NCBI GenBank assembly: GCA_003228915.1
Contig: QIGL01000115.1
Location: 1 to 61,563, forward strand
Reading direction: 5' to 3'
Source of the DNA: Acidiferrobacteraceae bacterium
Lineage (GTDB): Bacteria; Pseudomonadota; Gammaproteobacteria; Acidiferrobacterales; SZUA-150
Length of the DNA stretch: 61,563 nucleotides
Positions 13,777 through 28,250 of the stretch are shown in pieces (within the stretch, counting starts at the first letter, position 1; each line of letters begins with the position of its first letter). Made by a program: the position numbers and the translations under genes. Under the pieces are notes generated by a model. That model was not told the origin of the DNA, ran no database searches, and saw only the letters and a program-made list of their open reading frames with translations.

Positions 13777-14619
13777 TTGACTGATCGGCTTTATGGAATG
13801 GGTGGCGTGTCATCCGGCAAAGGGAAGCCGGGCCGCAAGCGTTATGCAATGGCCATAGATCTGCGTCGTTGCACTGGATGTAATGCTTGTACCGCTGCCT
13901 GCAAGACCCACTTTGATGTACCGTTGGGAGAATGGCGCATCTGGGTAATGGAAACAGAAGTCGGAAAATACCCGGATACCAAGCGTTATGTATTGCCGCG
14001 ATTGTGCAATCAGTGTGACGACCCACCTTGTATACCGGTTTGCCCGACCCAGGCAACTTTCAAACATCCAGATGGTTTTGTCCTGCAGCGCTACAACCGT
14101 TGTATCGGTTGTCGTGCCTGCATGGTGGCTTGCCCGTATAACGCCAGGCACCTGCTGCCCGATCACCGACGGGACAAACGTAACCCCCGCAACGTGGCTG
14201 ATAAGTGTGATTTCTGCGTGGTGCGCGTGACTCGCGGACTGGCCCCGCTTTGCGTGACTTCCTGCACCGGTGGTGCCCTCATATTCGGTGATATCAACGA
14301 CCCCGAAAGCGAAGTGGCACGCACGGTCAGGGACAACAAGGTATTTACCCTGCGACCGGAGTTGGGTACTGCGCCGCAGGTTTACTACATTGGTTTGAAC
14401 GAGTCTGTTGCCGATCCGGAATTCGCTTTCCTTAACCGTAGTGCCCAGCTTCGTGAGCGTTACGCTACCTTCAAACGTAATAGCGAGGTCGGCGGCGAGA
14501 TGGCCGGTAACATCGATGAGTCCGATATGGGATTTTTTGGTCTGGTGCGCCAGGGGCTGCACAATTTCGGGACCTTTTTTGCGGAAGCGCCGAAAAAGTT
14601 CTTTAGAGGTTTATATTGA
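13777..14619 (+). CDS. Four-cluster ferredoxin subunit (B subunit of Qrc/ACIII/Psr-like complex)
   Basis: The protein is the electron-wire subunit of a complex iron-sulfur molybdoenzyme-type assembly. It carries four cysteine groups with 16 cysteines: CTGCNACTAAC, CNQCDDPPCIPVC, CIGCRACMVAC and a split CDFC...LCVTSC, matching DmsB/PsrB/TtrB proteins. The TTG start at 13777 is set by GGAGG five bases upstream and by the lack of a better start. No export signal is visible, so it is presumably co-exported with the TAT-tagged partner encoded at 15534. Its stop overlaps the next ATG by one base (TGATG), indicating translational coupling. Confidence 0.92.
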   Translation: MTDRLYGMGGVSSGKGKPGRKRYAMAIDLRRCTGCNACTAACKTHFDVPLGEWRIWVMETEVGKYPDTKRYVLPRLCNQCDDPPCIPVCPTQATFKHPDGFVLQRYNRCIGCRACMVACPYNARHLLPDHRRDKRNPRNVADKCDFCVVRVTRGLAPLCVTSCTGGALIFGDINDPESEVARTVRDNKVFTLRPELGTAPQVYYIGLNESVADPEFAFLNRSAQLRERYATFKRNSEVGGEMAGNIDESDMGFFGLVRQGLHNFGTFFAEAPKKFFRGLY

Positions 14620-15521
14620 TGGAAGGTCAGGTCATCGCCAACGCCTTCCAAAATGCATACTGGGGATTTCCCATTGCCCTGTACTTTTGGCTGGTGGGTG
14701 CCTCAGCCGGCTCGTTCGTGATCAGCACACTGGGCTGGGTGTTCGGTGTTAAGAAATATAAACCCCTTGCACTTTTCGCTTCAAATACCGCCATCGTGGC
14801 GCTATTGATTGTGCCGGTATTACTGATCATTGATGCGGGCAAGCCCTATCGCTTCTTTCACCTCTTTATCTTTGCCCACTGGTCGGCACCAATGGTATGG
14901 GGTTCGTTTCTCATCATGACCTACCCAATTGCCATGGGGTTCTACAGCTTTTTTGTCCACAAAGAGAATCAACTTTGGGCGCGAAGACTGGGGATCCTGG
15001 CAATCGTGCTGGCGCTGTCTACCCACTGGTACACGGGGGTCGTCATGCAGCTGAACCCTGCGCGCCTGCCCAATCATACCTCGGTGGCACCGCTCCTGTT
15101 CCTGACCGGTGCCTATGTCTCGGGCATCGGACTGCTCATTCTCTGTTTGTGGTTACGCAATTTTCTGGTGACAGTTACAGCCAGGGTGTCTCCCGAGCTA
15201 ATGGCAGACATGGCGCGTCTGATGCTTTATGGCATTGTCTTCGATCTTTTTTTGTTGGGAAATGAGTTCCTGCAGATGACGTACGGGACTGGTGAAGAGC
15301 GCACCATCCTTTATGAGGTGCTGTTGGGTGTATTCCGCTGGCCGTACTTATACATTGAAGTTGTATGGGGCCTGCTCTTGCCGTTGATTATCCTGGTTAT
15401 TCCCAGGATCAGACGGTCGCTTAACGGTGTACTGGTAGCCGCCTTTATGACTGCCACCGGTGTTTATGGCATGCGCATCTGGTGGGTGATGGCAGCACAA
15501 TATTACCAGGGCCATTTTTAG
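14619..15521 (+). CDS. NrfD/PsrC-family membrane subunit
   Basis: NrfD/PsrC proteins are inner-membrane subunits with about eight helices that bind and oxidise or reduce quinones. This 300-residue protein is hydrophobic throughout and starts GFPIALYFWLVGASAGSF, close to the PsrC/NrfD first helix. The ATG at 14619 is preferred over TTG at 14616 because it overlaps the upstream stop and lies at a reasonable distance from AGAGG. It sits between the ferredoxin subunit and the molybdopterin homologue, so it is the membrane anchor and quinone module of the complex. Confidence 0.9.
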   Translation: MEGQVIANAFQNAYWGFPIALYFWLVGASAGSFVISTLGWVFGVKKYKPLALFASNTAIVALLIVPVLLIIDAGKPYRFFHLFIFAHWSAPMVWGSFLIMTYPIAMGFYSFFVHKENQLWARRLGILAIVLALSTHWYTGVVMQLNPARLPNHTSVAPLLFLTGAYVSGIGLLILCLWLRNFLVTVTARVSPELMADMARLMLYGIVFDLFLLGNEFLQMTYGTGEERTILYEVLLGVFRWPYLYIEVVWGLLLPLIILVIPRIRRSLNGVLVAAFMTATGVYGMRIWWVMAAQYYQGHF

Positions 15522-15533
15522 GGGGCGGGAAAT

Positions 15534-17882
15534 ATGAGAATTAGCCGACGTGGATTTTTACAAGTGTGTTTGGCTGTTGCCAGCGTGCTCGGGTACAAAA
15601 GAAAGGCCGTCGCTATGGAAGTGGCTCTTGGTGACCAGTCTTACAATTTCATCAAACGCCAGCCACGGGAACGTGTGTTCTCTTGTTCTCCTTTGCCACT
15701 GCACGACAATCCGGTTGAGGCCTGGGTGGAAGATGACCCCACTACTGTGAACCTGCTGACTGGTAAACCGGGCAGGCAAGTGGTCGAAATTTCCGGCGTG
15801 ACCGAATCTAATCGCAGCCGGGGGAGGGTAAGTGCTGCTGATTCCTCATCCTGGCTACAATTATCTGACGGTGATCGCTTAACACAACCACTCAAACGTG
15901 TGGGCGCCCGGGGCTCAGGAAAATGGCAGCGGATTTCCTGGCAACAGGCACTTGAGGAGGTTGGTCTTGCCGTTAAAAACAGTTCGCCGGAAGCCGTAGC
16001 ATTGTTGCGCGGTAAAGACACCAGTGCCGGGGCCTGGGATCGCTTTTTGCATACTATTGGTTCAAATACTGTGATCGAACTGGGTGATACCACCAATCGA
16101 CAGGCAGCGTTGCAAACGGTTTGGGGAGAGAAGGATTCGATTCCCGATTTGGCCCATAGCCATTACATACTCAATTTTGGTACCAATTTTTTTGTCAGCC
16201 ACCCGGACTATGCAGCTGAGGCCCTTGATGGCAGGATCTTCCGCCGCGCCCGGATTGTCACCTTTGATCCGCGCTGCTCAAAAACCGCCGGCCTTTCAGA
16301 CCAATGGGTGCAGGTACGCCCTGGGACGGACGGAGTGATAGCGTTGGCGATGACCCGTTACCTGCTGGAGAATGGCTGGGCGGATAAAGCTGCCATCAAA
16401 CGGCTTAGCAACCTCAGTGCTGTTCGTCTGGGTCAGGAATTGAAACCCTATACACTCGAGTATGCCGCGGAGGTCAGTGGTGTACCGGCGTTAACTATTC
16501 GTCGCATTGCCCGGGAGTTTGCCGAGAGCGGGCGAGGCTGTATCCTGACTGGCGCCGGCACGAGCGGACATGCCAACGGCTACGATACCGAGCGGGCCCT
16601 GATGTTGCTGCCCCTGGTAATCGGCGCGCTGGAGATAAGGGGGGGTAATTGCCTGCCACGGCGCCTGGAACTGGGTGGAATTGCGCCTGCACCGCCGATT
16701 CCCCGGAGCAAGAATCCAGCGAGCAATCCTTATCAATTCCCGTTTCAAGCCGGGAAACAATATCCCGTTAATGTACTTTTCGGATACAACGCCAATCCGG
16801 CATTCAACGTGCCGTCGGCAGCGCTTTGGCGCGACACACTGTCCGATCAGAACCGGGTCGGTTTATTTGTTGGTATTGGTACTTTCAGGAACGAAACCTG
16901 GGAACTGGCAGATATCATTCTTCCCGAGACCCACTGGTTGGAGCGTAACGAACCAGTGCGGGGAGAGGGAAGCCTGCTACCCTGGGTGGGTCTCAGGCAG
17001 CAAGCGGTTGCCCCCCCGGTCCAGGTCAGGGAGTTACGTGAAATCCTGCGGGATATCATTCATGCAACCGGGGATAATAAGCAAGCGCGCTACTGGCGAT
17101 TTAGCAATACCAGGGAATGGCTGGGAGAACAGCTTAATGGCGTTGCTGGCCTGAAAAAAAATGGCGGCTGGGACCTGGTGGCCAAACACAGTGGAGTGTG
17201 GCCTATTTATGGTTACCTGGATCCGGTGCTGCGTCGTATTGTCGACGAGCAGGGCGAGGAGGTGTTACCGAAATACGGCTTGCCTGTCAGGCTGAACCTT
17301 GATCCTTTCCCGCACTGGCAAGCGGCTGCAAATGTCGCTACCAGTAACGACGAGCTTACCTTGTTGGTGCATGCTTCTGACTACCATGCCGGAGATGCCT
17401 CGTCTAATAACAAGGTGATGGCGGAGATGACCTTGGCCAATAATTTGCAGATCAACACTGGAACTGCGGCAGGCCTGGGTATTCGCGATGGCGAGCTGGT
17501 GCGAGTGACCTCGCAGGCAGGTTACCTGGTGACCCGCGCCCACGTTACCCAGTCCATCCGACCAGAGGTGGTGGCCATGCACCGTGACGGGGGCCATTGG
17601 AGCATTGGTAGTGTGGCCAGTGGTAAGCTGGATTCGAAGCCAGAGAATACCCCCGTCAATCTGGACCACGACATTGTTCATAACCTGTGGTGGTCAGACT
17701 TTGGAGTTCACCCCATGGATCTGATTGTTCCTGTGTTTGACAAAAAAGGTGGCGGACCTGCCTATGCTACTCCGGTAAAGGTGGACAAGGCGCAAGCCGG
17801 CGACGCCTATGGCACGGTTAAGGTCGACACATCGACACTACTTGCATTTAAGCGCGCCGCTGCGACATCGAAAAAGGCATAA
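15534..17882 (+). CDS. TAT-exported molybdopterin-oxidoreductase-family protein lacking most metal ligands
   Basis: The fold is that of the DMSO reductase/PsrA superfamily: LKRVGARGSGKWQRISWQQA near residue 121, DPRCSKTAGLSDQW near 246, RPGTDGVIALAM near 263, and a C-terminal dinucleotide-binding-like domain. A twin-arginine signal SRRGFLQ lies at residues 4-10. Only five cysteines occur (12, 51, 249, 337, 374). Aligned by eye to PsrA-type proteins, the N-terminal 4Fe-4S ligands correspond to Cys51, Leu54, Asn59 and Ser101, and the Mo-ligand position falls at about Gly185 (ELGD). The frame is continuous across these sites, so this is substitution rather than a frameshift. Loss of cofactor ligands is known for QrcB and the ActB N-terminal domain. 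The protein is probably structural or electron-relaying rather than a terminal reductase. Confidence 0.85.
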   Translation: MRISRRGFLQVCLAVASVLGYKRKAVAMEVALGDQSYNFIKRQPRERVFSCSPLPLHDNPVEAWVEDDPTTVNLLTGKPGRQVVEISGVTESNRSRGRVSAADSSSWLQLSDGDRLTQPLKRVGARGSGKWQRISWQQALEEVGLAVKNSSPEAVALLRGKDTSAGAWDRFLHTIGSNTVIELGDTTNRQAALQTVWGEKDSIPDLAHSHYILNFGTNFFVSHPDYAAEALDGRIFRRARIVTFDPRCSKTAGLSDQWVQVRPGTDGVIALAMTRYLLENGWADKAAIKRLSNLSAVRLGQELKPYTLEYAAEVSGVPALTIRRIAREFAESGRGCILTGAGTSGHANGYDTERALMLLPLVIGALEIRGGNCLPRRLELGGIAPAPPIPRSKNPASNPYQFPFQAGKQYPVNVLFGYNANPAFNVPSAALWRDTLSDQNRVGLFVGIGTFRNETWELADIILPETHWLERNEPVRGEGSLLPWVGLRQQAVAPPVQVRELREILRDIIHATGDNKQARYWRFSNTREWLGEQLNGVAGLKKNGGWDLVAKHSGVWPIYGYLDPVLRRIVDEQGEEVLPKYGLPVRLNLDPFPHWQAAANVATSNDELTLLVHASDYHAGDASSNNKVMAEMTLANNLQINTGTAAGLGIRDGELVRVTSQAGYLVTRAHVTQSIRPEVVAMHRDGGHWSIGSVASGKLDSKPENTPVNLDHDIVHNLWWSDFGVHPMDLIVPVFDKKGGGPAYATPVKVDKAQAGDAYGTVKVDTSTLLAFKRAAATSKKA

Positions 17883-17886
17883 CCCA

Positions 17887-19173
17887 ATGGCGAGAATATG
17901 GAAAATCATGGTTACCACGGCGCTCAATATAATAGCGTCGATCCGCAATTCGTTTAGCCGTATGACGAAGAAAAGAAAGATTATCGTCGCTGCAGCACTC
18001 GGTGTAACGGGCTTGATCCTGATTTTTAGTGTCGGCAAGGTTGGCATCCTGCCTGTGTACGGCGTTAAGTCGGTGTTCCAGACTCCGGGAACCTGTAGCG
18101 CCTGCCACGAGACCTGGTATAACGAGGCCGCTTATGCCTTTAACCCCAAAGGCAATCAACATTCTCCCTCCTCGGGAGTGACCATCGGCTGTGCCGAGTG
18201 CCACCCGGTTCAGTACGAGGAATACCAGCTTTCAGCCATGGGCGGCAGTAAAAACGAGTTACGGCCCGGATGTACCAATTGCCACGACAAATCACACTCA
18301 GTATTCCAATGGTTCACGCACATGTATCGGGGTGATGAGGTCTGGACCCAAATGGTGCAACTAGCGCTGCGTGACCGGGATCTTTACAACACCGAGCTGG
18401 GACTGCGTCTTGCCCCAAAAGCGCGCGCGCGATTCATCGAGACGGACAGTGCCCGCTGCCGGGAATGCCATCGGCCTGATAACCTGCCCCTGTTCAAGGG
18501 CACGCTCGGTGAATACCTGCCCGGGCTTTTGCCGCACCAACAAGCAAAAGAACAAAATATCACCTGTATACAATGCCATCAGAACCTGACACACAATCTC
18601 TCCTTTCCAGTCCCCTGGCGCGGTAAGTCAAATAGGGCAGTGCAAGGTAGTCTCGAAGCGGGGAAACAAAAATCCGCGACCTGTACCGGTTGCCACGGGG
18701 CCGATGGCAATAGCGCCCAATCCGTGTTCCCCAGTATCGCAGGATTAAATGCCAACTACCTCACCCAGCAGTTGCGGGCATTCAAGGCGGGCAGGCGGAA
18801 AAACGTCATTATGCAAGGCTTTGCGGCGACGCTGAGCGAACAGGACATGGCGGATCTGGCAGCCTACTACAGTGAACAGGAAATGCGTCCCACCCGGTTC
18901 TGGCCCAAAGTGTTGTCGCTACAGCTACGGGCAAACCTGGAAATCGGTGAGGCACTATACAAGCAAAGTTGCGCGCGTTGTCATGGTTTGACCGGCCTTG
19001 GCCAGGGTATTTTTCCAGCGCTGGCGGGCCAGTACTCCGATTACGCAGTCGCACAAATGCTTGCCTTCAAGACCGCAAATCGCGAAGAGCACTCCATTAT
19101 GCGTGACGTGGCAAAAGGGCTTAGTGAAAAAGACTTGAGACTGATCTCCGACTACCTTGCGGGGCTTAAGTGA
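17887..19173 (+). CDS. Membrane-anchored heptaheme cytochrome c (NapC/NirT-like plus c4-like)
   Basis: The 428-residue protein has an N-terminal membrane anchor (about residues 31-50) and seven CXXCH sites: at 70, 102, 129, 191, 227, 266 and 362. The first five lie in a NapC/NirT-like part; the CRECH and CIQCH...THNL segments match that family closely. The last two lie in a c4-like diheme part with CTGCHGADG, FPSIAGL, LTQQLRAFK and a second copy (FPALAGQ, AVAQMLAFK). The start at 17887 follows the previous stop by five bases. NapC proteins take electrons from quinols and c4 cytochromes often feed cbb3 oxidases, so this one polypeptide could bridge quinol to a terminal acceptor. I do not recall this fusion as a standard one. 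Confidence 0.9.
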   Translation: MARIWKIMVTTALNIIASIRNSFSRMTKKRKIIVAAALGVTGLILIFSVGKVGILPVYGVKSVFQTPGTCSACHETWYNEAAYAFNPKGNQHSPSSGVTIGCAECHPVQYEEYQLSAMGGSKNELRPGCTNCHDKSHSVFQWFTHMYRGDEVWTQMVQLALRDRDLYNTELGLRLAPKARARFIETDSARCRECHRPDNLPLFKGTLGEYLPGLLPHQQAKEQNITCIQCHQNLTHNLSFPVPWRGKSNRAVQGSLEAGKQKSATCTGCHGADGNSAQSVFPSIAGLNANYLTQQLRAFKAGRRKNVIMQGFAATLSEQDMADLAAYYSEQEMRPTRFWPKVLSLQLRANLEIGEALYKQSCARCHGLTGLGQGIFPALAGQYSDYAVAQMLAFKTANREEHSIMRDVAKGLSEKDLRLISDYLAGLK

Positions 19174-19658
19174 GCGAAAAGATACTGGATAATTTGTCGG
19201 AGAACGGCCCTCTCGAGCAGCACCGGACTTCTGCACACAGTGACCTGCTTATCTATGACGTATTTATTAACGTGGAAGGTTTACGGGTACGGGTGCCGAG
19301 ACCTCTATTCGGTTTTATTCCTTTCGGTGTCAGCAAACAGTTCGGATTTTACGTCGTGATGAAGTTTGCTGCACCCGGGTCCAGCGAGCCAGGGTTATTG
19401 TTGAGCCTGGCCAGGTCGGCGCTAGCCAGCGAGTTTGCACCGGTTAGCAAGAGCTCACCGGATGAGTGGCAGCTACGACAAATAAACTGTCGTGAGCTCG
19501 GTGCAGCAGCGCCAATGTTTCAGCAGCCGGATTGTGTCGACCAGGACTGGGGCGCACTATGGTATGAGATTGGGGATGAGGCCGCGAAACAAAGTCGTTA
19601 CGAGCTGGCAAAGAAACGTCTGTGGGACGAAGACTTCAAGGTGCCGAGAGCATCTTAA
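19170..19658 (+). CDS. Small unrecognised protein of the respiratory operon
   Basis: The product has 162 residues with no signal peptide, membrane helix or cysteine cluster; its two cysteines are isolated. I do not recognise the family. A GTG start at 19170 overlaps the previous TGA by four bases, and the stop overlaps the next ATG, so it is tightly coupled to its neighbours. Composition is mixed alpha/beta with a charged C-terminal helix. Position suggests an accessory or maturation role for the complex. It does not look like a TorD-type chaperone, which is normally larger and helical. Confidence 0.75.
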   Translation: MSEKILDNLSENGPLEQHRTSAHSDLLIYDVFINVEGLRVRVPRPLFGFIPFGVSKQFGFYVVMKFAAPGSSEPGLLLSLARSALASEFAPVSKSSPDEWQLRQINCRELGAAAPMFQQPDCVDQDWGALWYEIGDEAAKQSRYELAKKRLWDEDFKVPRAS

Positions 19659-20827
19659 TGAACGAGCACAGCATTCTTTACCTCCGGGGTGACACAGTTA
19701 ATAAAGGCACCAGTGAAATTGCGCTCGGGATTGATCAGGCACAGTGCCTGAACCTCAGGGGGCGACACGTCAGCTGCACGCGGTGTGCCGACAGTTGCCC
19801 GGTAAAGGCGTTGGTACTGACCGCAGACGAGGTCCGCCTGGATGGGGAGCGCTGTACCGCATGCGGTGCTTGCTTGCCGATTTGTCCGTCAGGCGCCTTA
19901 TTATTAAGCGGATTCGACCCGCAGCAATTTCTGGAAACCGTGGCAGATTCGGCCGAGGTCCACATACACTGTAGTCGGAGTGGCCATCCCGATGCTGGCA
20001 ACACTGTGCCCTGTCTTCAGGTTCTGGATGCCCGCTTGCTGGCTGCGGTGGCAGCTGACGGTGCCCAAACCGTGGTGTTACATGGCGCCGATCATTGTTC
20101 GGATTGTGATCGAGGTGACGCCCGTGCCACCATCGAGCAAATGCACGCTGAGCTAAAAAAATGGTTCACGGGCCTCCCTGTACACCTCACAGTGGAGCAG
20201 GGTGTGCAGATCGAAACGGGAGTACAATCGGGTGCGGAGCAGGTTGATCTCGGCCGTCGAAATTTTCTGCGTTTAGCCAATGCGAAGCCTGACCACGGTG
20301 TTTCAAAGTGGTCTGACGAGGTTGTACCCGAACGGGAGCAGGCAGCATTGCGCTGGCCCCTTTTGTCGAGTAATGGAAGTGCCTGTCGCCCATCCTCCTA
20401 CCAGGAGTTGCTGGCAGTGCGAGCTGAGTTACTTCCCTGGCGAGACCACTATTTGCCCTGGCGCGCACGAAAGTTTAGCGATGCATGTAGTGTCTGTCTA
20501 ACCTGTGCCCAACTCTGCCCCACGGGGGCGCTGGTGGCAGAGGAGACCAGGTCGACAATTTCCATTTTGTTTCATTTGCGTTTATGTACGGACTGCGGCC
20601 TGTGCGAAAATCTCTGTCCAGAAAACGCCATTTCAAACACCTATGTCACAGGCCCGGAAGTATTGTCCACACCATCATATCCCGTGATGCATCGCGATTT
20701 ACATAAGTGCAAAAACTGCACCCGCAATTTTGTTCCCGGGCCAGGCTCAGGAGAGCTGTGCACGACTTGCCAGAACGAGTACAATGTAACTAACGAATGG
20801 AGGGCAATGTTGACTAAATTGCCCTAA
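19658..20827 (+). CDS. Cytosolic polyferredoxin with two 2x[4Fe-4S] modules
   Basis: The protein has two ferredoxin modules separated by a central domain. Module one is CTRCADSC then CTACGACLPIC (about residues 40-80). Module two is CSVCLTCAQLC then CTDCGLCENLC (about residues 270-320). A further pair, CKNC and CTTC, near the C-terminus looks like a zinc or rubredoxin-like knuckle. The middle holds CSRSGHPDAGN and HCSDCDRG. There is no signal peptide, so it should be cytosolic. The ATG at 19658 overlaps the upstream stop, and the upstream in-frame start at 19622 would overlap that gene. NapF-like maturation or a soluble electron donor or acceptor to the complex are both possible. Confidence 0.85.
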   Translation: MNEHSILYLRGDTVNKGTSEIALGIDQAQCLNLRGRHVSCTRCADSCPVKALVLTADEVRLDGERCTACGACLPICPSGALLLSGFDPQQFLETVADSAEVHIHCSRSGHPDAGNTVPCLQVLDARLLAAVAADGAQTVVLHGADHCSDCDRGDARATIEQMHAELKKWFTGLPVHLTVEQGVQIETGVQSGAEQVDLGRRNFLRLANAKPDHGVSKWSDEVVPEREQAALRWPLLSSNGSACRPSSYQELLAVRAELLPWRDHYLPWRARKFSDACSVCLTCAQLCPTGALVAEETRSTISILFHLRLCTDCGLCENLCPENAISNTYVTGPEVLSTPSYPVMHRDLHKCKNCTRNFVPGPGSGELCTTCQNEYNVTNEWRAMLTKLP

Positions 20828-20887: not shown

Positions 20888-21376
20888 ATGTACACACACA
20901 CTGTAAAGAAATTCAGGCAAGCCGCACTCGTTTTGATCAGTGTGGTCATTTTTAGTCCTGTAGCCACGGCTTCAGATGCCCCTGAGAATTTCCAGGTGGC
21001 CAAAGGTATCGCGATTTACCTGGGTGTGATGCCGGCCGAGGTCATCAAGGGTGACCACAAGACAAACAAGCAGACCAAGAAACATAAAAGGGCGCTCAAG
21101 AGGGAACACCGTGATCATGTGGTCGTGGCATTATTTGACAATGCTACCGGTAAACGAATCGAAAATGCCAAGGTCAAGGCTGGCGTTATGGAGTTCGGAT
21201 TGGGGACCAAGGTAAAAAAGCTTGATCCTATGAAAATTGCCGGCACGATTACCTACGGCAACTACTTCGATATGCCCAATAAAGATATATATCACATAGT
21301 GATACAAATACGCCGCCCAGGTATAAAGGGTGTCGTTGAAGCAAAATTCACACACAAGCATTTCGTCAAGAAGTGA
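20888..21376 (+). CDS. Periplasmic protein of unknown function at operon end
   Basis: A strong AGGAGG seven bases before the ATG supports this 162-residue frame. An N-terminal signal peptide ends near ATASDA (about residue 29). The mature part is lysine/histidine-rich (KTNKQTKKHKRALKREHRDH), then a beta-rich segment with VVVALFDNATGKRI, TYGNYFDMP and a closing IRRPGIKGVVEAKFTHKHF. I do not recognise the family; an immunoglobulin-like beta sandwich is plausible. It lies 60 bases after the polyferredoxin in the same direction and may share the transcript or have its own promoter. Confidence 0.75.
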   Translation: MYTHTVKKFRQAALVLISVVIFSPVATASDAPENFQVAKGIAIYLGVMPAEVIKGDHKTNKQTKKHKRALKREHRDHVVVALFDNATGKRIENAKVKAGVMEFGLGTKVKKLDPMKIAGTITYGNYFDMPNKDIYHIVIQIRRPGIKGVVEAKFTHKHFVKK

Positions 21377-22285: not shown

Positions 22286-22477
22286 TACCAGCTTTCGCAA
22301 TCAAACTTTTACCAGTAATTGCCTGAACGGTGATTATTACCCGGAATATGCATTTTTTGATTGGTTTCTTCGCAGGCACCAACCATGAATGTACGTAAAA
22401 TTTTCGGATATTAAAATGTCATTCTTATATTTCTTTTAACGCATGAATACAAAAAATTATTTACAAAGGTTTTGAAA

Positions 22478-23764
22478 ATGTTTCTGATAACCAAACAAAC
22501 GACGATTATTATTTCGGCATGGTTTGTTATATTACTTATGTTTTTGCCGCTTAGTCATGTCCAGGCAGAAAATACTGGCAATATACAATCCGCACCCGGC
22601 GAGCTGCGTCAGTTCATTGAAATATTACTGCCTGTCCATCCTCGTTACGTTGCCGCCGAGGCTGAACTGGCAGTTGCCAGGGCACAGTACGATGCCGCAG
22701 ATAAAGCTATCTATAATCCTGAACTGGAGCTTGATGCAGAGAAAACCGATATTCAAACGGCAACGATTGGCTTAAGTCAAACCATTGACTGGGGCGATCA
22801 GCGTGGTGCCAAAACACAAATTACCAAATTTCGTCTTGCTGCGGCCGAAGCAAAGTTCCAACGAGAGCGACAACAACTCATCCAGGATCTGTTCGTCGCG
22901 CTCAGTAATTATCAAAACAAGACACGACTGGCTGAGCTATCAAACCAGCGCCTGAAGATAATGAAGGACTTTTATGATATTGCCCGGAAAAGATATACCG
23001 TAGGTGATTTGAGTCAAGTTGAGCTGGATCTTGCGCAACTGGCATATAGTGAGTCGGTATTTAAAAATGCACAAACCTTGTCTGATCAGGTTCGTGCCGA
23101 ACAGAGTTTTTATGCCTTGTATAGTATCAGTACAGGAACGACCAGTTCTTCGCTTCCCGATTTATCTCTAGATTTTCAGAACATAGAAATTCCAACGGGT
23201 CTGGACGCTTTTTTGATGACTCTTCCGCAAATGCGAATGTTGCGTGCCAATGTTGATGCAAGTAAATACGTAATCGATTTGCGGGAGAGTGAAGCGAGCG
23301 CCGACCCGACCATCGCACTACGGGGCGGCAAGGAAGATGAAGAAACCCTGGCCGGTTTGACTTTGACAATTCCGTTAAATGTTCGAAATACTTTTAGCGC
23401 TGAAATTGAGGCAGCCAGGAAAGAATACTTGCAGGCAGAGCAGCTCGCTCAACAAGCGTACCGTAATTTACGACGAGATATTAAATCGTCAACCCAGCAC
23501 TACCAGCTTACTCTAAGCGCCTGGCGTCAATGGCAAAAAAGCGGCCAGGTGAGCGTGAAACGTCAATTGGGAATACTCAGGCGACTGTGGCAGGCGGGCG
23601 ATATAAGCACAACGGATTATCTTGTCCAGATTAAACAAAATCTGGATACCCAGTCTGCCGGTATAGAGCTTAACTCTACACTCTGGGCAAGTTGGCTAAC
23701 CTGGCTGGAAGCAACTGCCCAAATTGAATCATGGCTACAACTTCAAGACACGAGGAAACAATAA
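22478..23764 (+). CDS. CzcC-like outer-membrane factor (TolC family)
   Basis: This is the outer-membrane channel of a tripartite heavy-metal RND pump. It has a signal peptide ending near VQAE, then two long helical hairpin repeats typical of the outer membrane efflux protein family, including LAELSNQRLKIMKDFYDIARK and DISTTDYLVQ. The ATG at 22478 is preferred to a TTG at 22472 for spacing from AAAGG. It is followed at one base by the adaptor and then the pump. Metal specificity cannot be read from this subunit. Confidence 0.88.
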   Translation: MFLITKQTTIIISAWFVILLMFLPLSHVQAENTGNIQSAPGELRQFIEILLPVHPRYVAAEAELAVARAQYDAADKAIYNPELELDAEKTDIQTATIGLSQTIDWGDQRGAKTQITKFRLAAAEAKFQRERQQLIQDLFVALSNYQNKTRLAELSNQRLKIMKDFYDIARKRYTVGDLSQVELDLAQLAYSESVFKNAQTLSDQVRAEQSFYALYSISTGTTSSSLPDLSLDFQNIEIPTGLDAFLMTLPQMRMLRANVDASKYVIDLRESEASADPTIALRGGKEDEETLAGLTLTIPLNVRNTFSAEIEAARKEYLQAEQLAQQAYRNLRRDIKSSTQHYQLTLSAWRQWQKSGQVSVKRQLGILRRLWQAGDISTTDYLVQIKQNLDTQSAGIELNSTLWASWLTWLEATAQIESWLQLQDTRKQ

Positions 23765-23765
23765 A

Positions 23766-25046
23766 ATGTTACGAATGACATTAATATTTATTACGATATT
23801 CACTTTCTTAAGTCTGGCAGCTTGTAGTCAGGGCGAGTCTGAGTCAAAACAAAAGACGGTAAGTAACGACGTCGAACCCAGTAAACATGAGGAGAGCGAT
23901 AACCATGAGGATGGCGAGCATCATGACAGTAAAAAAGAGGCGGGACATGATGACAATGAAAGCCATAAAGACACTGAGCATCACGACGAAGGTGCAGAGA
24001 AAGGCGGTCATGAGGAGGGCGGAACTACCCAACTGAAGCCGGCACAAATGCAAGCGGCAGGCATAATTGTTGAGCCCCTTGTTTTAAGCGAAGTATCCAC
24101 GATTATACGGGCTCCGGGTGAGGTCAAACTTAATAGTTATCGTACTATCAAGGTGTCGCCACGAATCAATGCCCAGGTGATAAAACGCCATGCCCGTCTT
24201 GGTGAAGAGGTCAGTGAAGGCCAGAACCTGGTAACACTCTCCAGTGTCGAGATGGCTGATGCCCAAGGTAAACTGTTGCTTGCTGATAAAGAATGGAAGC
24301 GTGTAAAAAAACTGGGTCGCAAGGTGATATCAGGCCGTCGCTATAGTACAGCGAAAGTGGATTATGAAAAAAGTTATGCCAAGGCCAGGGCCTTTGGTAT
24401 GAATAAGGCAGATATCAAGGCGCTGCTTAAACAAAAACGTAGTGCCGATGGTTCGTTTACTTTGGCAGCTCAACAAGCAGGCCGTGTACTGCACGATAAA
24501 TTTATTGTTGGTGAACGTGTTGAGGCAGGTTATGAGCTAATGGTAATCGCCGATGAGTCTACTATGTGGGTTCAGGCGCGCATGACGCCAGGTCTTGTCG
24601 GTCAAATTGACGTCGGTAACACAGCCGAGATCCTGCTAGAGAGCCAACGCCTGCCTGCAAAAGTTATCCAGCTTCACCACACCCTTGATGAAACTACCCG
24701 CACCTCGGCAGTACGCCTGGAGGTGGCGAATGAAAATGATCGCCTGCATGCCGGTATGTTTGTGACAACCTTGGTAACTTCGCGCAATAAAAACAAGGCC
24801 TTGCAAGTTCCGGAAGCTGCTGTTCTGCGCAGTGCCGACGGGGACTGGCAGGTGATGGTTGAGCAAGATGAAGCCGGGGAGTTTAAAGCCGTTGAGGTAA
24901 AAGTAAAAAATATCAGTGATGGCAAGGCTGTCATTGAGGGTCTTGGGAATAATATTATCCGGCCTGGAACCCGTGTTGTCACCCAAGGTGCGTTTTTTGT
25001 CCAGTCTGAACTGGCCAAAGGCGGCTTTGAGATACACAACCATTAG
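23766..25046 (+). CDS. CzcB-like periplasmic adaptor lipoprotein with His-rich N-terminus
   Basis: This is the membrane-fusion subunit of the RND pump. A lipobox LAAC ends the signal, so it is a lipoprotein. A 60-residue segment packed with His, Asp and Glu follows (for example HEDGEHHDSKK), a likely metal-binding region. Then come the standard lipoyl, barrel-sandwich and membrane-proximal domains (IKVSPRINAQVIKRHARLG; PGTRVVTQGAFFVQSELAK). The ATG at 23766 overlaps nothing and starts two bases after the czcC stop; an upstream frame start would lie inside czcC. Confidence 0.9.
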   Translation: MLRMTLIFITIFTFLSLAACSQGESESKQKTVSNDVEPSKHEESDNHEDGEHHDSKKEAGHDDNESHKDTEHHDEGAEKGGHEEGGTTQLKPAQMQAAGIIVEPLVLSEVSTIIRAPGEVKLNSYRTIKVSPRINAQVIKRHARLGEEVSEGQNLVTLSSVEMADAQGKLLLADKEWKRVKKLGRKVISGRRYSTAKVDYEKSYAKARAFGMNKADIKALLKQKRSADGSFTLAAQQAGRVLHDKFIVGERVEAGYELMVIADESTMWVQARMTPGLVGQIDVGNTAEILLESQRLPAKVIQLHHTLDETTRTSAVRLEVANENDRLHAGMFVTTLVTSRNKNKALQVPEAAVLRSADGDWQVMVEQDEAGEFKAVEVKVKNISDGKAVIEGLGNNIIRPGTRVVTQGAFFVQSELAKGGFEIHNH

Positions 25047-25058
25047 AGGCGGGTTGAC

Positions 25059-28000
25059 ATGTTAAATAAACTAATTGATATAGCTGTTGGCAGCCGCCTG
25101 TTAGTGGTGCTTTCGTTAATCGCGATTTTATTTGCCGCGTTTTTAATTTTACCAAAACTTAACCTTGATGCCTTTCCTGATGTGACCAATGTTCAGGTAA
25201 CGGTTAATACCGAGGCGCCGGGCCTGGCTGCAGAAGAGGTGGAACAATTAATTACCTTTCCGATTGAAGCGGTGATGTACAGCCTGCCGGATGTTGAGGA
25301 AGTACGTTCTATTTCCAAAACCGGATTGTCCGGTGTCACCGTGGTATTTACAGAAGGCACAGATATTTATTTTGCCCGGCAATTGGTATTTGAACGACTA
25401 CAAGCTGCGAAAGAAGAGATACCCGATGGTGTGGGTGTGCCCGCCATGGGGCCAAATACTTCGGGGCTAGGCCAGGTATTCCAGTACATGATTCGTTCCG
25501 AAAAACGTGGCCAGTTTGACGCATTAACCTTGCGTAGCTTGAATGACTGGGTCGTAAAGTTGTTGCTTATGCCCGTTGATGGTGTCACCGAGGTATTATC
25601 GTTTGGTGGTGAGGTGCGGCAATACCAGGTACAACTGGATCCGCAGCGCTTGCTCAGTTTCAATTTAACCTCACGAGATGTTGCCGAAGCGTTGGCGGCC
25701 AATAACCGTAATGCCGGTGGCTGGTATATGGACCGTGGCGCTGAACAGTTGATTATTCGTGGCGTTGGTTGGGTGCGTAGTGGCGAAGATGGCCTGCGTG
25801 ATCTGGGTAATATTCCCCTGAAACAGGAAAATGGTAATGTGGTTAAGGTAAGCCATGTCGCCAATGTCCGTTTTGGCGCCGAAATTCGCCAGGGCGCAGT
25901 GACCATGACCATGCGTGATGAACAGGGTCAGCCACAACAACTGGGTGAGGTGGTAGTAGGGATTGTCATGAAACGTATGGGCGCCAATACCAAGGCCACG
26001 ATCGACGGCATTAAATCACGCCTGCCAATTATTCAACAGGCCTTGCCCGAGGGTGTGATTCTTGATCCGTTTTATGATCAGTCAGATCTGGTGAGCAAAG
26101 CAGTGAGCACCGTGACAAAGGCTTTACTTGAGGCTTTTGTCCTGATTATTATTGTTTTATTACTGTTCCTGATGAATGTTCGTGCAACATTACTGGTGTT
26201 GTTATCGATTCCTATTTCAATTGGGCTGGCACTCATGGCCATGGCTTACTGGGGTGTGTCGGCAAACTTAATGTCACTGGGTGGGCTGGCTATTGCCATT
26301 GGCATGATGGTAGACGGATCGGTGGTGATGATGGAACATATTTTTAGTCACCTAACTCATGCGGATGCAGACCACAGGGAGCATCAGAAACAGGCCCAAA
26401 ACGATGAGCATCCCTATGACTCGGAGCATGATAGCCACGGTATGGCACTGCGTATCCAGGAGTCCGCCAAGGAAGTGGGCCGACCGGTATTTTTTGCGGT
26501 ACTCATTATTACTATCGTTTTTGCGCCCCTGTTTTCACTGGAAGGGGTCGAGGGTAAATTATTTCAGCCCATGGCGATATCGATTGTACTGGCGATGGCT
26601 GCCTCCCTGATCGTTGCCCTGATGGTAATCCCGGCCCTTGCCACTTATGCGTTTAAAACAGGTGTGGTTGAAAAACAAAGTCCGGTGTTACAACCCATTG
26701 ATAAACATTATCGAATACGACTCAAGCAGGCGTTGGACAAAAAAAGTTTAATAGTGAAATCGGCAATTGGCCTTTTTATTGGCTCACTATTACTGGTGCC
26801 CTTTTTAGGGACCGAGTTTGTTCCGGAGCTGGAAGAAGGCACCATAAATGTGCGTGTTACCCTGGCACCATCTTCCAGTTTAAAAACGGCACTTATGGTC
26901 GCTGAAAAACTGGAACAACAGCTTATGACTTTTCCCGAAGTCCTGTATGCATCCAGTCGTATTGGTCGTGCCGAAGTGGGCGGCGACCCGGAACCGGTAT
27001 CGAATGTAGAAATTTTTATCGGCCTGAAGCCTATCGATGAATGGGAATCGGCTTCGGATCGCAAATCAATTCAAGTCTTGATGGAAGAGAAAATGTCGGT
27101 CATACCAGGATTGTTATTTAATTTTTCCCAGCCCATTGCAACCCGTGTCGATGAATTATTATCCGGCGTGAAGGCGCAGTTGGCAATTAAATTATTCGGC
27201 GCAGATCTGGGCGTACTGGTTACCAAGGGCAAGGAAATCGAAGCCCTGGTAAAAAAAGTCGAAGGCACGCGCGGTGTTGCCCTTGAGCAAACAGAAGGCG
27301 AGGCGCAACTGGTGGTGCGACCGGATCGAGACAAGCTTGCTCGATATGGTATTCCAGTTGACCAGGTCATGAGCCTGATTAGTGATGCAGTGGGCGGCCA
27401 GGAGGCCGGACAGGTAATACGCGGCAATGAACGCTATGACATCTATGTTCGGTTGGCGGAACAACATCGCAATAGCGTCGAAGCCATCAGCAGCCTGATT
27501 TTACAGGCCGCCGATGGTGCCTGGGTACGCGTTGGTGACGTAGCGAAAGTCGCCATTGAGTCCGGTCCACCACAGATACGCCGTGATGACGTGCAGCGTC
27601 GGGTGGTCATCCAGACTAATGTGGAGGGTCGTGATATGGGTGGGCTGGTAGCCGAGATTGATCAACGTATTCGTAAGGAAATTAAACTACCATCTGGATA
27701 TAGCGTGGTATTCGGTGGTCAGTTCGAAAACCAGCAACGGGCCCAGGCAAGGCTTATGATTGTCGTGCCTTTATCTCTTGGTTTAATATTTTTATTGTTA
27801 TATTTTGCATTTAGCTCGGTTGGACAGGCATTGTTAATAATGTTGAATGTGCCCATGGCGTTGATTGGCGGTATCGCGGCCTTGTTTTTCTCAGGGCAAT
27901 ATCTTTCTGTACCTGGATCGATCGGTTTTATAGCCCTGTTTGGTGTCGCCGTATTAAATGGCGTGGTCATGGTCAATGCCATTAACCAGCGTTTTGAAGG

Positions 28001-28250
28001 CGGCTCGTCGATTCAGGAAGCGATTTTTGAGGGCGCTTTATCTCGTTTACGCCCGGTGTTGATGACAGCATTCATTGCCGCCCTTGGCTTGATCCCGATG
28101 TTATTAGCCACTGGTGTCGGTTCGGAAGTGCAACGACCCCTGGCGACTGTGGTTGTCGGCGGTTTGTTCTCATCAACTTTACTGACACTGTTTTTATTAC
28201 CAGTATTGTATGAAAAATTTTCTCTGAAAAAATATGTCTATGAAGAATAA
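25059..28250 (+). CDS. czcA: CzcA-like heavy-metal RND efflux pump
   Basis: This is the inner-membrane proton-driven pump exporting divalent metals, 1063 residues, with the twelve-helix RND layout. The N-terminus LNLDAFPDVTNVQVTVNTEA is typical of CzcA/CusA proteins. The proton-relay region in helix 4 reads GMMVDGSVVMMEH, with the DG form seen in Co/Zn/Cd pumps rather than the DA form of Cu/Ag pumps; His replaces the usual Asn after the Glu. A His-rich insertion follows (HLTHADADHREHQ and HPYDSEHDSHG) at about residues 430-465. Gene order gives a full CzcCBA set. The exact metal is inferred only. Confidence 0.9.
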   Translation: MLNKLIDIAVGSRLLVVLSLIAILFAAFLILPKLNLDAFPDVTNVQVTVNTEAPGLAAEEVEQLITFPIEAVMYSLPDVEEVRSISKTGLSGVTVVFTEGTDIYFARQLVFERLQAAKEEIPDGVGVPAMGPNTSGLGQVFQYMIRSEKRGQFDALTLRSLNDWVVKLLLMPVDGVTEVLSFGGEVRQYQVQLDPQRLLSFNLTSRDVAEALAANNRNAGGWYMDRGAEQLIIRGVGWVRSGEDGLRDLGNIPLKQENGNVVKVSHVANVRFGAEIRQGAVTMTMRDEQGQPQQLGEVVVGIVMKRMGANTKATIDGIKSRLPIIQQALPEGVILDPFYDQSDLVSKAVSTVTKALLEAFVLIIIVLLLFLMNVRATLLVLLSIPISIGLALMAMAYWGVSANLMSLGGLAIAIGMMVDGSVVMMEHIFSHLTHADADHREHQKQAQNDEHPYDSEHDSHGMALRIQESAKEVGRPVFFAVLIITIVFAPLFSLEGVEGKLFQPMAISIVLAMAASLIVALMVIPALATYAFKTGVVEKQSPVLQPIDKHYRIRLKQALDKKSLIVKSAIGLFIGSLLLVPFLGTEFVPELEEGTINVRVTLAPSSSLKTALMVAEKLEQQLMTFPEVLYASSRIGRAEVGGDPEPVSNVEIFIGLKPIDEWESASDRKSIQVLMEEKMSVIPGLLFNFSQPIATRVDELLSGVKAQLAIKLFGADLGVLVTKGKEIEALVKKVEGTRGVALEQTEGEAQLVVRPDRDKLARYGIPVDQVMSLISDAVGGQEAGQVIRGNERYDIYVRLAEQHRNSVEAISSLILQAADGAWVRVGDVAKVAIESGPPQIRRDDVQRRVVIQTNVEGRDMGGLVAEIDQRIRKEIKLPSGYSVVFGGQFENQQRAQARLMIVVPLSLGLIFLLLYFAFSSVGQALLIMLNVPMALIGGIAALFFSGQYLSVPGSIGFIALFGVAVLNGVVMVNAINQRFEGGSSIQEAIFEGALSRLRPVLMTAFIAALGLIPMLLATGVGSEVQRPLATVVVGGLFSSTLLTLFLLPVLYEKFSLKKYVYEE

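Follow-up and report, generated by a model that had tools for sequence, protein, structure and literature searches.

What could a respiratory operon do when its molybdoenzyme-like subunit appears to have lost every metal site? The question is raised by a 61,563-nucleotide stretch of DNA from an Acidiferrobacteraceae bacterium, a gammaproteobacterium of sulfur-oxidising type (hereafter the window, for the stretch), which carries at positions 13777-20827, all on the plus strand, the six genes listed by an earlier interpretation made from the letters alone (the sequence-only reading): a ferredoxin (B), an NrfD-type membrane subunit (C), a MopB-fold subunit (A), a heptaheme cytochrome, a small protein and a polyferredoxin. 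We think it probable, with real room for doubt, that these genes specify a quinol:cytochrome c oxidoreductase bound to the membrane, in which A serves as a molybdenum-free scaffold. The features on which the argument draws, all on the plus strand, are the following.

13777-14619, plus: B, a four-[4Fe-4S] ferredoxin of the PsrB/TtrB/DsrO/QrcC type (PF13247)
14137-14139, plus: Tyr121 of B in a CPY motif (CPYxA), presumably matching QrcC Tyr113, a residue near the quinone site
14616-15521, plus: C, an NrfD-type membrane subunit of 301 amino acids with about 8 transmembrane helices (PF03916, E 9e-33)
15534-17882, plus: A, a MopB-fold subunit of 782 amino acids with a twin-arginine translocation (Tat) signal (PF00384, PF01568, alignments, tree)
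15540-15563, plus: twin-arginine motif of A, SRRGFLQ (sequence)
15681-15842, plus: degenerate Fe4S4 region near the N-terminus of A, spanning residues 50-103 (seen by alignment against relatives still carrying CxxC...CAKG)
16083-16100, plus: former molybdenum-ligand site of A, changed from a TSVCESSKK type to a GDTTNRQ type (alignment)
17809-19173, plus: heptaheme cytochrome, a pentaheme NapC/NirT-like domain with a fused cytochrome c4 (seven CxxCH, PF03264, c4 match)
17980-18036, plus: membrane anchor of the cytochrome (hydropathy)
18646-19167, plus: diheme cytochrome c4 domain (PDB 6q2u, 1etp)
19170-19658, plus: small protein of 162 residues with a GTG start (homologues in L057 and L101-L105)
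19658-20827, plus: polyferredoxin, four Fer4 motifs flanking a Cys-rich middle (Fer4 families), probably cytoplasmic

The composition of the operon, its motif losses, its shared ancestry with related operons and its gene linkage are what the sequences establish, and the losses in A are the most telling of these. Alignment finds none of the N-terminal Fe4S4 cysteines and no molybdenum-ligand cysteine in A, and the Fe4S4 domain family has no match in it, unlike PF00384 and PF01568. Every complete A protein from operons of the window's type (W3; seven distinct proteins aligned, plus that of L019) lacks the same cysteines, and the W3 pocket motifs, KG after the last Cys and NH preceding the molybdenum Cys, are replaced. 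In a second type of operon (W2), A keeps three Fe4S4 cysteines and an Asp at the fourth place (10 of 10) and has lost the molybdenum Cys (10 of 10 complete proteins). A third set (L059, L060, L061 and L116) keeps the molybdenum Cys together with three Fe4S4 cysteines, again with Asp at the fourth place. Ten catalytic-type relatives share 188 invariant positions, of which W2 retains 75% and W3 59%. A TorD-family chaperone adjoins A in all four third-set genomes and in none of the W2 and W3 genomes searched. Genome-wide, no NarJ/TorD chaperone was detected in G000 (the window's own genome), G001, G605, G497, G500 and G422 (six of seven W3 genomes searched) or in the W2 genomes G149, G450, G460, G589 and G501, in a search with one Pfam family that a diverged chaperone could escape and across genomes of which some are incomplete. 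The sequence-only reading had called A cofactor-poor, which these losses bear out; we infer that A is free of pterin as well.

The quinone-to-iron-sulfur half of the putative complex looks intact, since B carries the CPY Tyr and 16 of 16 conserved cysteines, sufficient for four [4Fe-4S] clusters, and C has conserved polar, charged and aromatic residues (D73, R79, Y139 and R287, which do not vary among W2, W3 and their catalytic cousins). The CPYxA motif is present in all 24 aligned B proteins, and its Tyr is by analogy the presumed counterpart of QrcC Tyr113, described as essential and near the quinone site (PMC13059093). The operon thus holds the parts of an NrfD/PsrB redox module, an NrfD subunit and a four-cluster ferredoxin with the putative quinone-site Tyr. 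B scores 207 bits on the TtrB model, 206 on DsrO (cut-off 200) and 124.3 on QrcC (NF041782, cut-off 400). We rejected B and C as a DsrO/DsrP pair: B lies just over the DsrO cut-off, but the tree sets the DsrO of the same genome far off, and C reaches 66 of the 350 bits needed on the DsrP model.

The cytochrome has seven CxxCH motifs, of which the first five lie in a NapC/NirT-like domain (PF03264) and the last two in the c4 domain; its C-terminal half (residues 280-453) matches cytochrome c4 of PDB entry 6q2u with an E value of 2e-29. It had been described as a NapC-c4 fusion, which it is, with the refinement that the N-terminal domain is a pentaheme NapC/NirT relative, not a tetraheme NapC. 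This pentaheme domain is common to W2 and W3, the c4 domain being added in most W3 proteins. The most basal W3 relative (L106:6575-7912) is heptaheme too, with the same pentaheme part and a differently arranged diheme tail, which suggests that the tails have been gained or swapped.

These parts could work together as follows. Quinol would be oxidised at the interface of C and B, on the periplasmic side. With no cofactor in A, the electron path must go from B to the hemes, and electrons would pass along the iron-sulfur clusters of B into the pentaheme domain, on to the fused cytochrome c4 and finally to a cbb3 oxidase, the usual partner of c4. Solved structures (PDB 8smr and 8snh) show cytochrome c4 together with cbb3 oxidase, and the genome encodes a cbb3 oxidase, so the simplest chain here leads from quinol through c4 to that oxidase. 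A, formerly a PsrA/PhsA-like molybdenum subunit, would now be a scaffold without cofactors on which B, C and the cytochrome dock, with its Tat signal still exporting the A-B pair; the last two genes would probably supply an accessory (the small protein) and an assembly factor left over from the earlier enzyme (the polyferredoxin). The W2 chain would have a nitrite reductase as its end point. The sequence-only reading had preferred a quinol-cytochrome c oxidoreductase to a polysulfide or tetrathionate reductase, and the cytochrome as a likely electron exit agrees with that choice, as do the c4 part and the linkage of W2 to nirS described below.

The gene order recurs in L019 (an uncultured Acidiferrobacteraceae bacterium; A 96% identical), in L057 (A 81%) and, for the most part, in L101-L106, so that the layout is not a matter of chance, and the view of the six genes as one machine is supported. 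Near-complete W3 copies are those of L057, from another family of the same class, and, outside the class, of L101 and L102 (A 69% and 63% identical); L104, L105 and L106 are more remote. The genome search that the sequence-only reading had proposed found the operon to be sporadic across several families and not common: besides the window's genome only G113 matched in a class sample of 369 genomes, and in the class of G605 a match was found in 4 of 78. L104 and L105 both lie in G422, a single genome with two diverged W3 operons.

W2 operons come from G149, G269 and genomes of the same phylum outside the class (L058, L062, L107-L115). Their order is B-C-A-pentaheme cytochrome, without c4, the small protein or the polyferredoxin. 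A cd1-type nitrite reductase gene lies near 10 of the 11 W2 loci, usually with a small cytochrome c, and at the eleventh (L111) the contig ends 456 bases beyond the cytochrome. The L109 enzyme reaches 578 bits against NirS of Pseudomonas aeruginosa, its score against NirN being far lower. The cd1 nitrite reductase receives its electrons from periplasmic cytochromes. In a magnetotactic coccus, a second nirS is reported next to a NirC-like cytochrome, an arrangement similar to the W2 neighbourhood (PMC6783814). As a partner within the window's own genome nirS was rejected, with only weak beta-propeller matches there. G001, of the same genus, has three cd1-domain genes (G001:C2:109617-118005), strong matches without counterpart in the window's genome, and nitrite respiration may be variable within the genus.

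In the A tree, W2 and W3 fall together (bootstrap/Shimodaira-Hasegawa-like approximate likelihood ratio test, SH-aLRT, 100/99), the third set comes next (99/99) and then Psr-like proteins (95/81). The B and C trees, built by a quicker method than the A tree, give the same W2 and W3 grouping (SH-aLRT 93 and 100), and in the B tree also the third set is the nearest outside relative. The best NCBIfam match of A is PhsA, at 211 bits (NF012032, cut-off 694). By its motifs and its place in the tree, A looks like the product of a PsrA/PhsA-like catalytic lineage in which cofactors and chaperone were lost and a cytochrome was gained. PsrABC and PhsABC stand near the evolutionary origin of A, with the Psr-like group next outside in the tree, but here A is without molybdenum ligand, Fe4S4 site and chaperone, and a cytochrome has been added. 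The undescribed third-set operons (B-C-A, TorD-family chaperone, polyferredoxin), sister to W2 and W3 in the A tree, have the same polyferredoxin (the copy in the window shares 40% and 29% identity with those of these cofactor-keeping cousins), but they keep their cysteines and chaperone and have no cytochrome. We lean, narrowly, towards an independent origin of a quinol:cytochrome c oxidoreductase on a molybdenum-free MopB scaffold, with its steps still extant. A catalytic type with molybdenum Cys and TorD would have led to W2, with the molybdenum ligand lost, the Fe4S4 cysteines kept and a pentaheme cytochrome dedicated to cd1 nitrite reductase, and then to W3, with the Fe4S4 site lost too and c4 fused, probably feeding cbb3 oxidase.

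Three alternatives have to be weighed. First, and as the main rival, the complex could run in reverse as a cytochrome c:quinone reductase in the manner of Qrc, with electrons from periplasmic sulfur or iron oxidation passing through c4 to quinone, possibly driven by the proton-motive force. Such a role, which we regard as unlikely, would suit the dsr cluster in the window's genome and the W2 relative G149/G269, whose operon adjoins dsr; however, terminal oxidases receive electrons from c4 at high potential, so that quinone reduction from it would be uphill, the W2 linkage to nirS suggests that electrons exit via cytochrome c, and the bc1 complex that is present could perform reverse transport. 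Qrc itself, the closest layout, does run from cytochrome to quinone (PMC13059093).

Second, A could still be an enzyme that binds molybdenum- or tungsten-bis(pyranopterin guanine dinucleotide) without a protein ligand and catalyses a periplasmic reaction of its own. MopB enzymes of this kind exist, as AioA and IdrA bind the molybdenum form without a protein ligand (PMC10100899), Psr-type enzymes have the same operon partners, B and C, and W2 and W3 retain the shares of catalytic-type positions given above. Against this stand the complete loss of the Fe4S4 site in W3, the replaced pocket motifs, the NarJ/TorD chaperone missing from six of seven W3 genomes and the added multiheme cytochrome, and we hold continued catalysis by A to be rather improbable.

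Finally, the operon could be a genuine member of the Qrc or alternative complex III (ACIII) families, to which the sequence-only reading had likened it. The kinds of parts are indeed alike. ACIII (ActABCDEF) has NrfD, an iron-sulfur chain, a molybdenum-free MopB domain, a membrane-anchored pentaheme cytochrome and a further exit cytochrome c, but its ActB combines MopB and Fe-S domains in a fusion related to ArrAB (PMC10100899), and here A and B have separate genes, A stands close to PsrA/PhsA-like proteins and the c4 domain is joined to the pentaheme cytochrome. Neither ActD, ActE nor ActF (a second NrfD-like protein) was found in the operon, nor the extended Tat domain of ActB (TIGR04519) in G000. 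The ActB of G140 was not retrieved by the A search at 1e-4 and lies far outside in the A tree, on a very long branch, so that A does not group with ActB in a tree holding this single ActB, and the operon cytochrome gave no match to the ActA-like pentaheme cytochrome of G140. QrcABCD shares a multiheme cytochrome, a Tat-exported MopB subunit that is cofactor-less at the sequence level, a four-cluster ferredoxin and NrfD, but its cytochrome is another one, and the order here is B-C-A-cytochrome plus two genes. A scores 134.9 bits on QrcB (NF041783, cut-off 440), no higher than the catalytic Psr-like relatives (159-180). QrcD is reported solely in Deltaproteobacteria (PMC8076601). With QrcB and QrcC scores far under their cut-offs, ActB remote in the tree, no ActB-type fusion in the operon, a NapC-like pentaheme cytochrome and nearest outside relatives that keep the molybdenum Cys, TorD and polyferredoxin, true membership is very improbable. 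The operon would work like ACIII and Qrc and be a member of neither by the features compared (QrcB by score, not by tree), and the resemblance looks like convergence; QrcB is absent from the tree, so independence from Qrc rests on the scores. The 12 types of NrfD complex distinguished in a 2021 review (PMC8076601) include none with these genes, and no description of the operon was found in the Creative Commons-licensed literature.

Several points weigh against the oxidoreductase we favour. The missing protein ligand in A is by itself compatible with cofactor binding, as in AioA and IdrA; the direction of the electrons, like the assembly of the complex and the role of the last two genes, is something we infer; the small protein and the polyferredoxin are left outside the explanation; and the relatives come mostly from draft genomes. 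A simple replacement of the bc1 complex is ruled out, since the cytochrome c1 family was matched in all eight genomes searched.

The small protein has no Pfam or NCBIfam family, and its single-sequence fold prediction reaches a pLDDT (predicted local distance difference test) of 34.6. Formate-dehydrogenase-like MopB operons (L122:3315-5060, L123:2909-4663) seemingly have a polyferredoxin and, next to it, a possible TorD-like gene, a hint that the polyferredoxin acts in the assembly of MopB systems. In the window the polyferredoxin reading frame opens at 19622, the ATG at 19658 being the likelier start, which gives a TAATG overlap with the preceding gene. The sequence-only reading had described tight overlaps. 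Most junctions do overlap or nearly touch (B/C 4 nucleotides of overlap, C/A a gap of 12, cytochrome/small protein 4 of overlap), but the overlap of A and cytochrome depends on the start codon, and the probable true start, 17887 or 17962 (the start common to relatives), leaves a short gap.

Downstream of the operon, a secreted-looking protein of 162 residues with no known family (window 20888-21376, plus strand) has a homologue 3' of the operon in L019 and L057, and may be a seventh operon gene. Beyond it, judged from the open reading frames, lies a CzcCBA-like metal efflux operon (window 22472-28250, plus strand) that encodes an RND (resistance-nodulation-division) pump, a membrane-fusion protein whose N-terminus is rich in His, and an efflux protein of the outer membrane. 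The genome of the window, a 2.66 Mb draft in which the window is contig 4, also encodes a dsr cluster (L039), a SoeA-like operon (L040), cbb3-type and aa3-type oxidases and a cytochrome bc1 complex. Its only other NrfD is DsrP-like, encoded by a gene of the dsr cluster (L039:12307-13607; G000:C8:64806-66106) that is split over several frames with an internal stop, through either gene decay or faulty assembly.

Three independent losses of the molybdenum cofactor are on record in a MopB superfamily survey that does not mention QrcB (PMC10100899). If our account is true, the operon would add a further loss, among the PsrA/PhsA-related lineages and with living intermediates visible, and it would open to testing how a metalloenzyme turns into a respiratory scaffold and what leads bacteria that have a bc1 complex to keep a second route from quinol to cytochrome c. 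The interest of the case lies in the surviving intermediates and in the link to nirS, which suggests that nitrite respiration has a source of electrons so far unrecognised.

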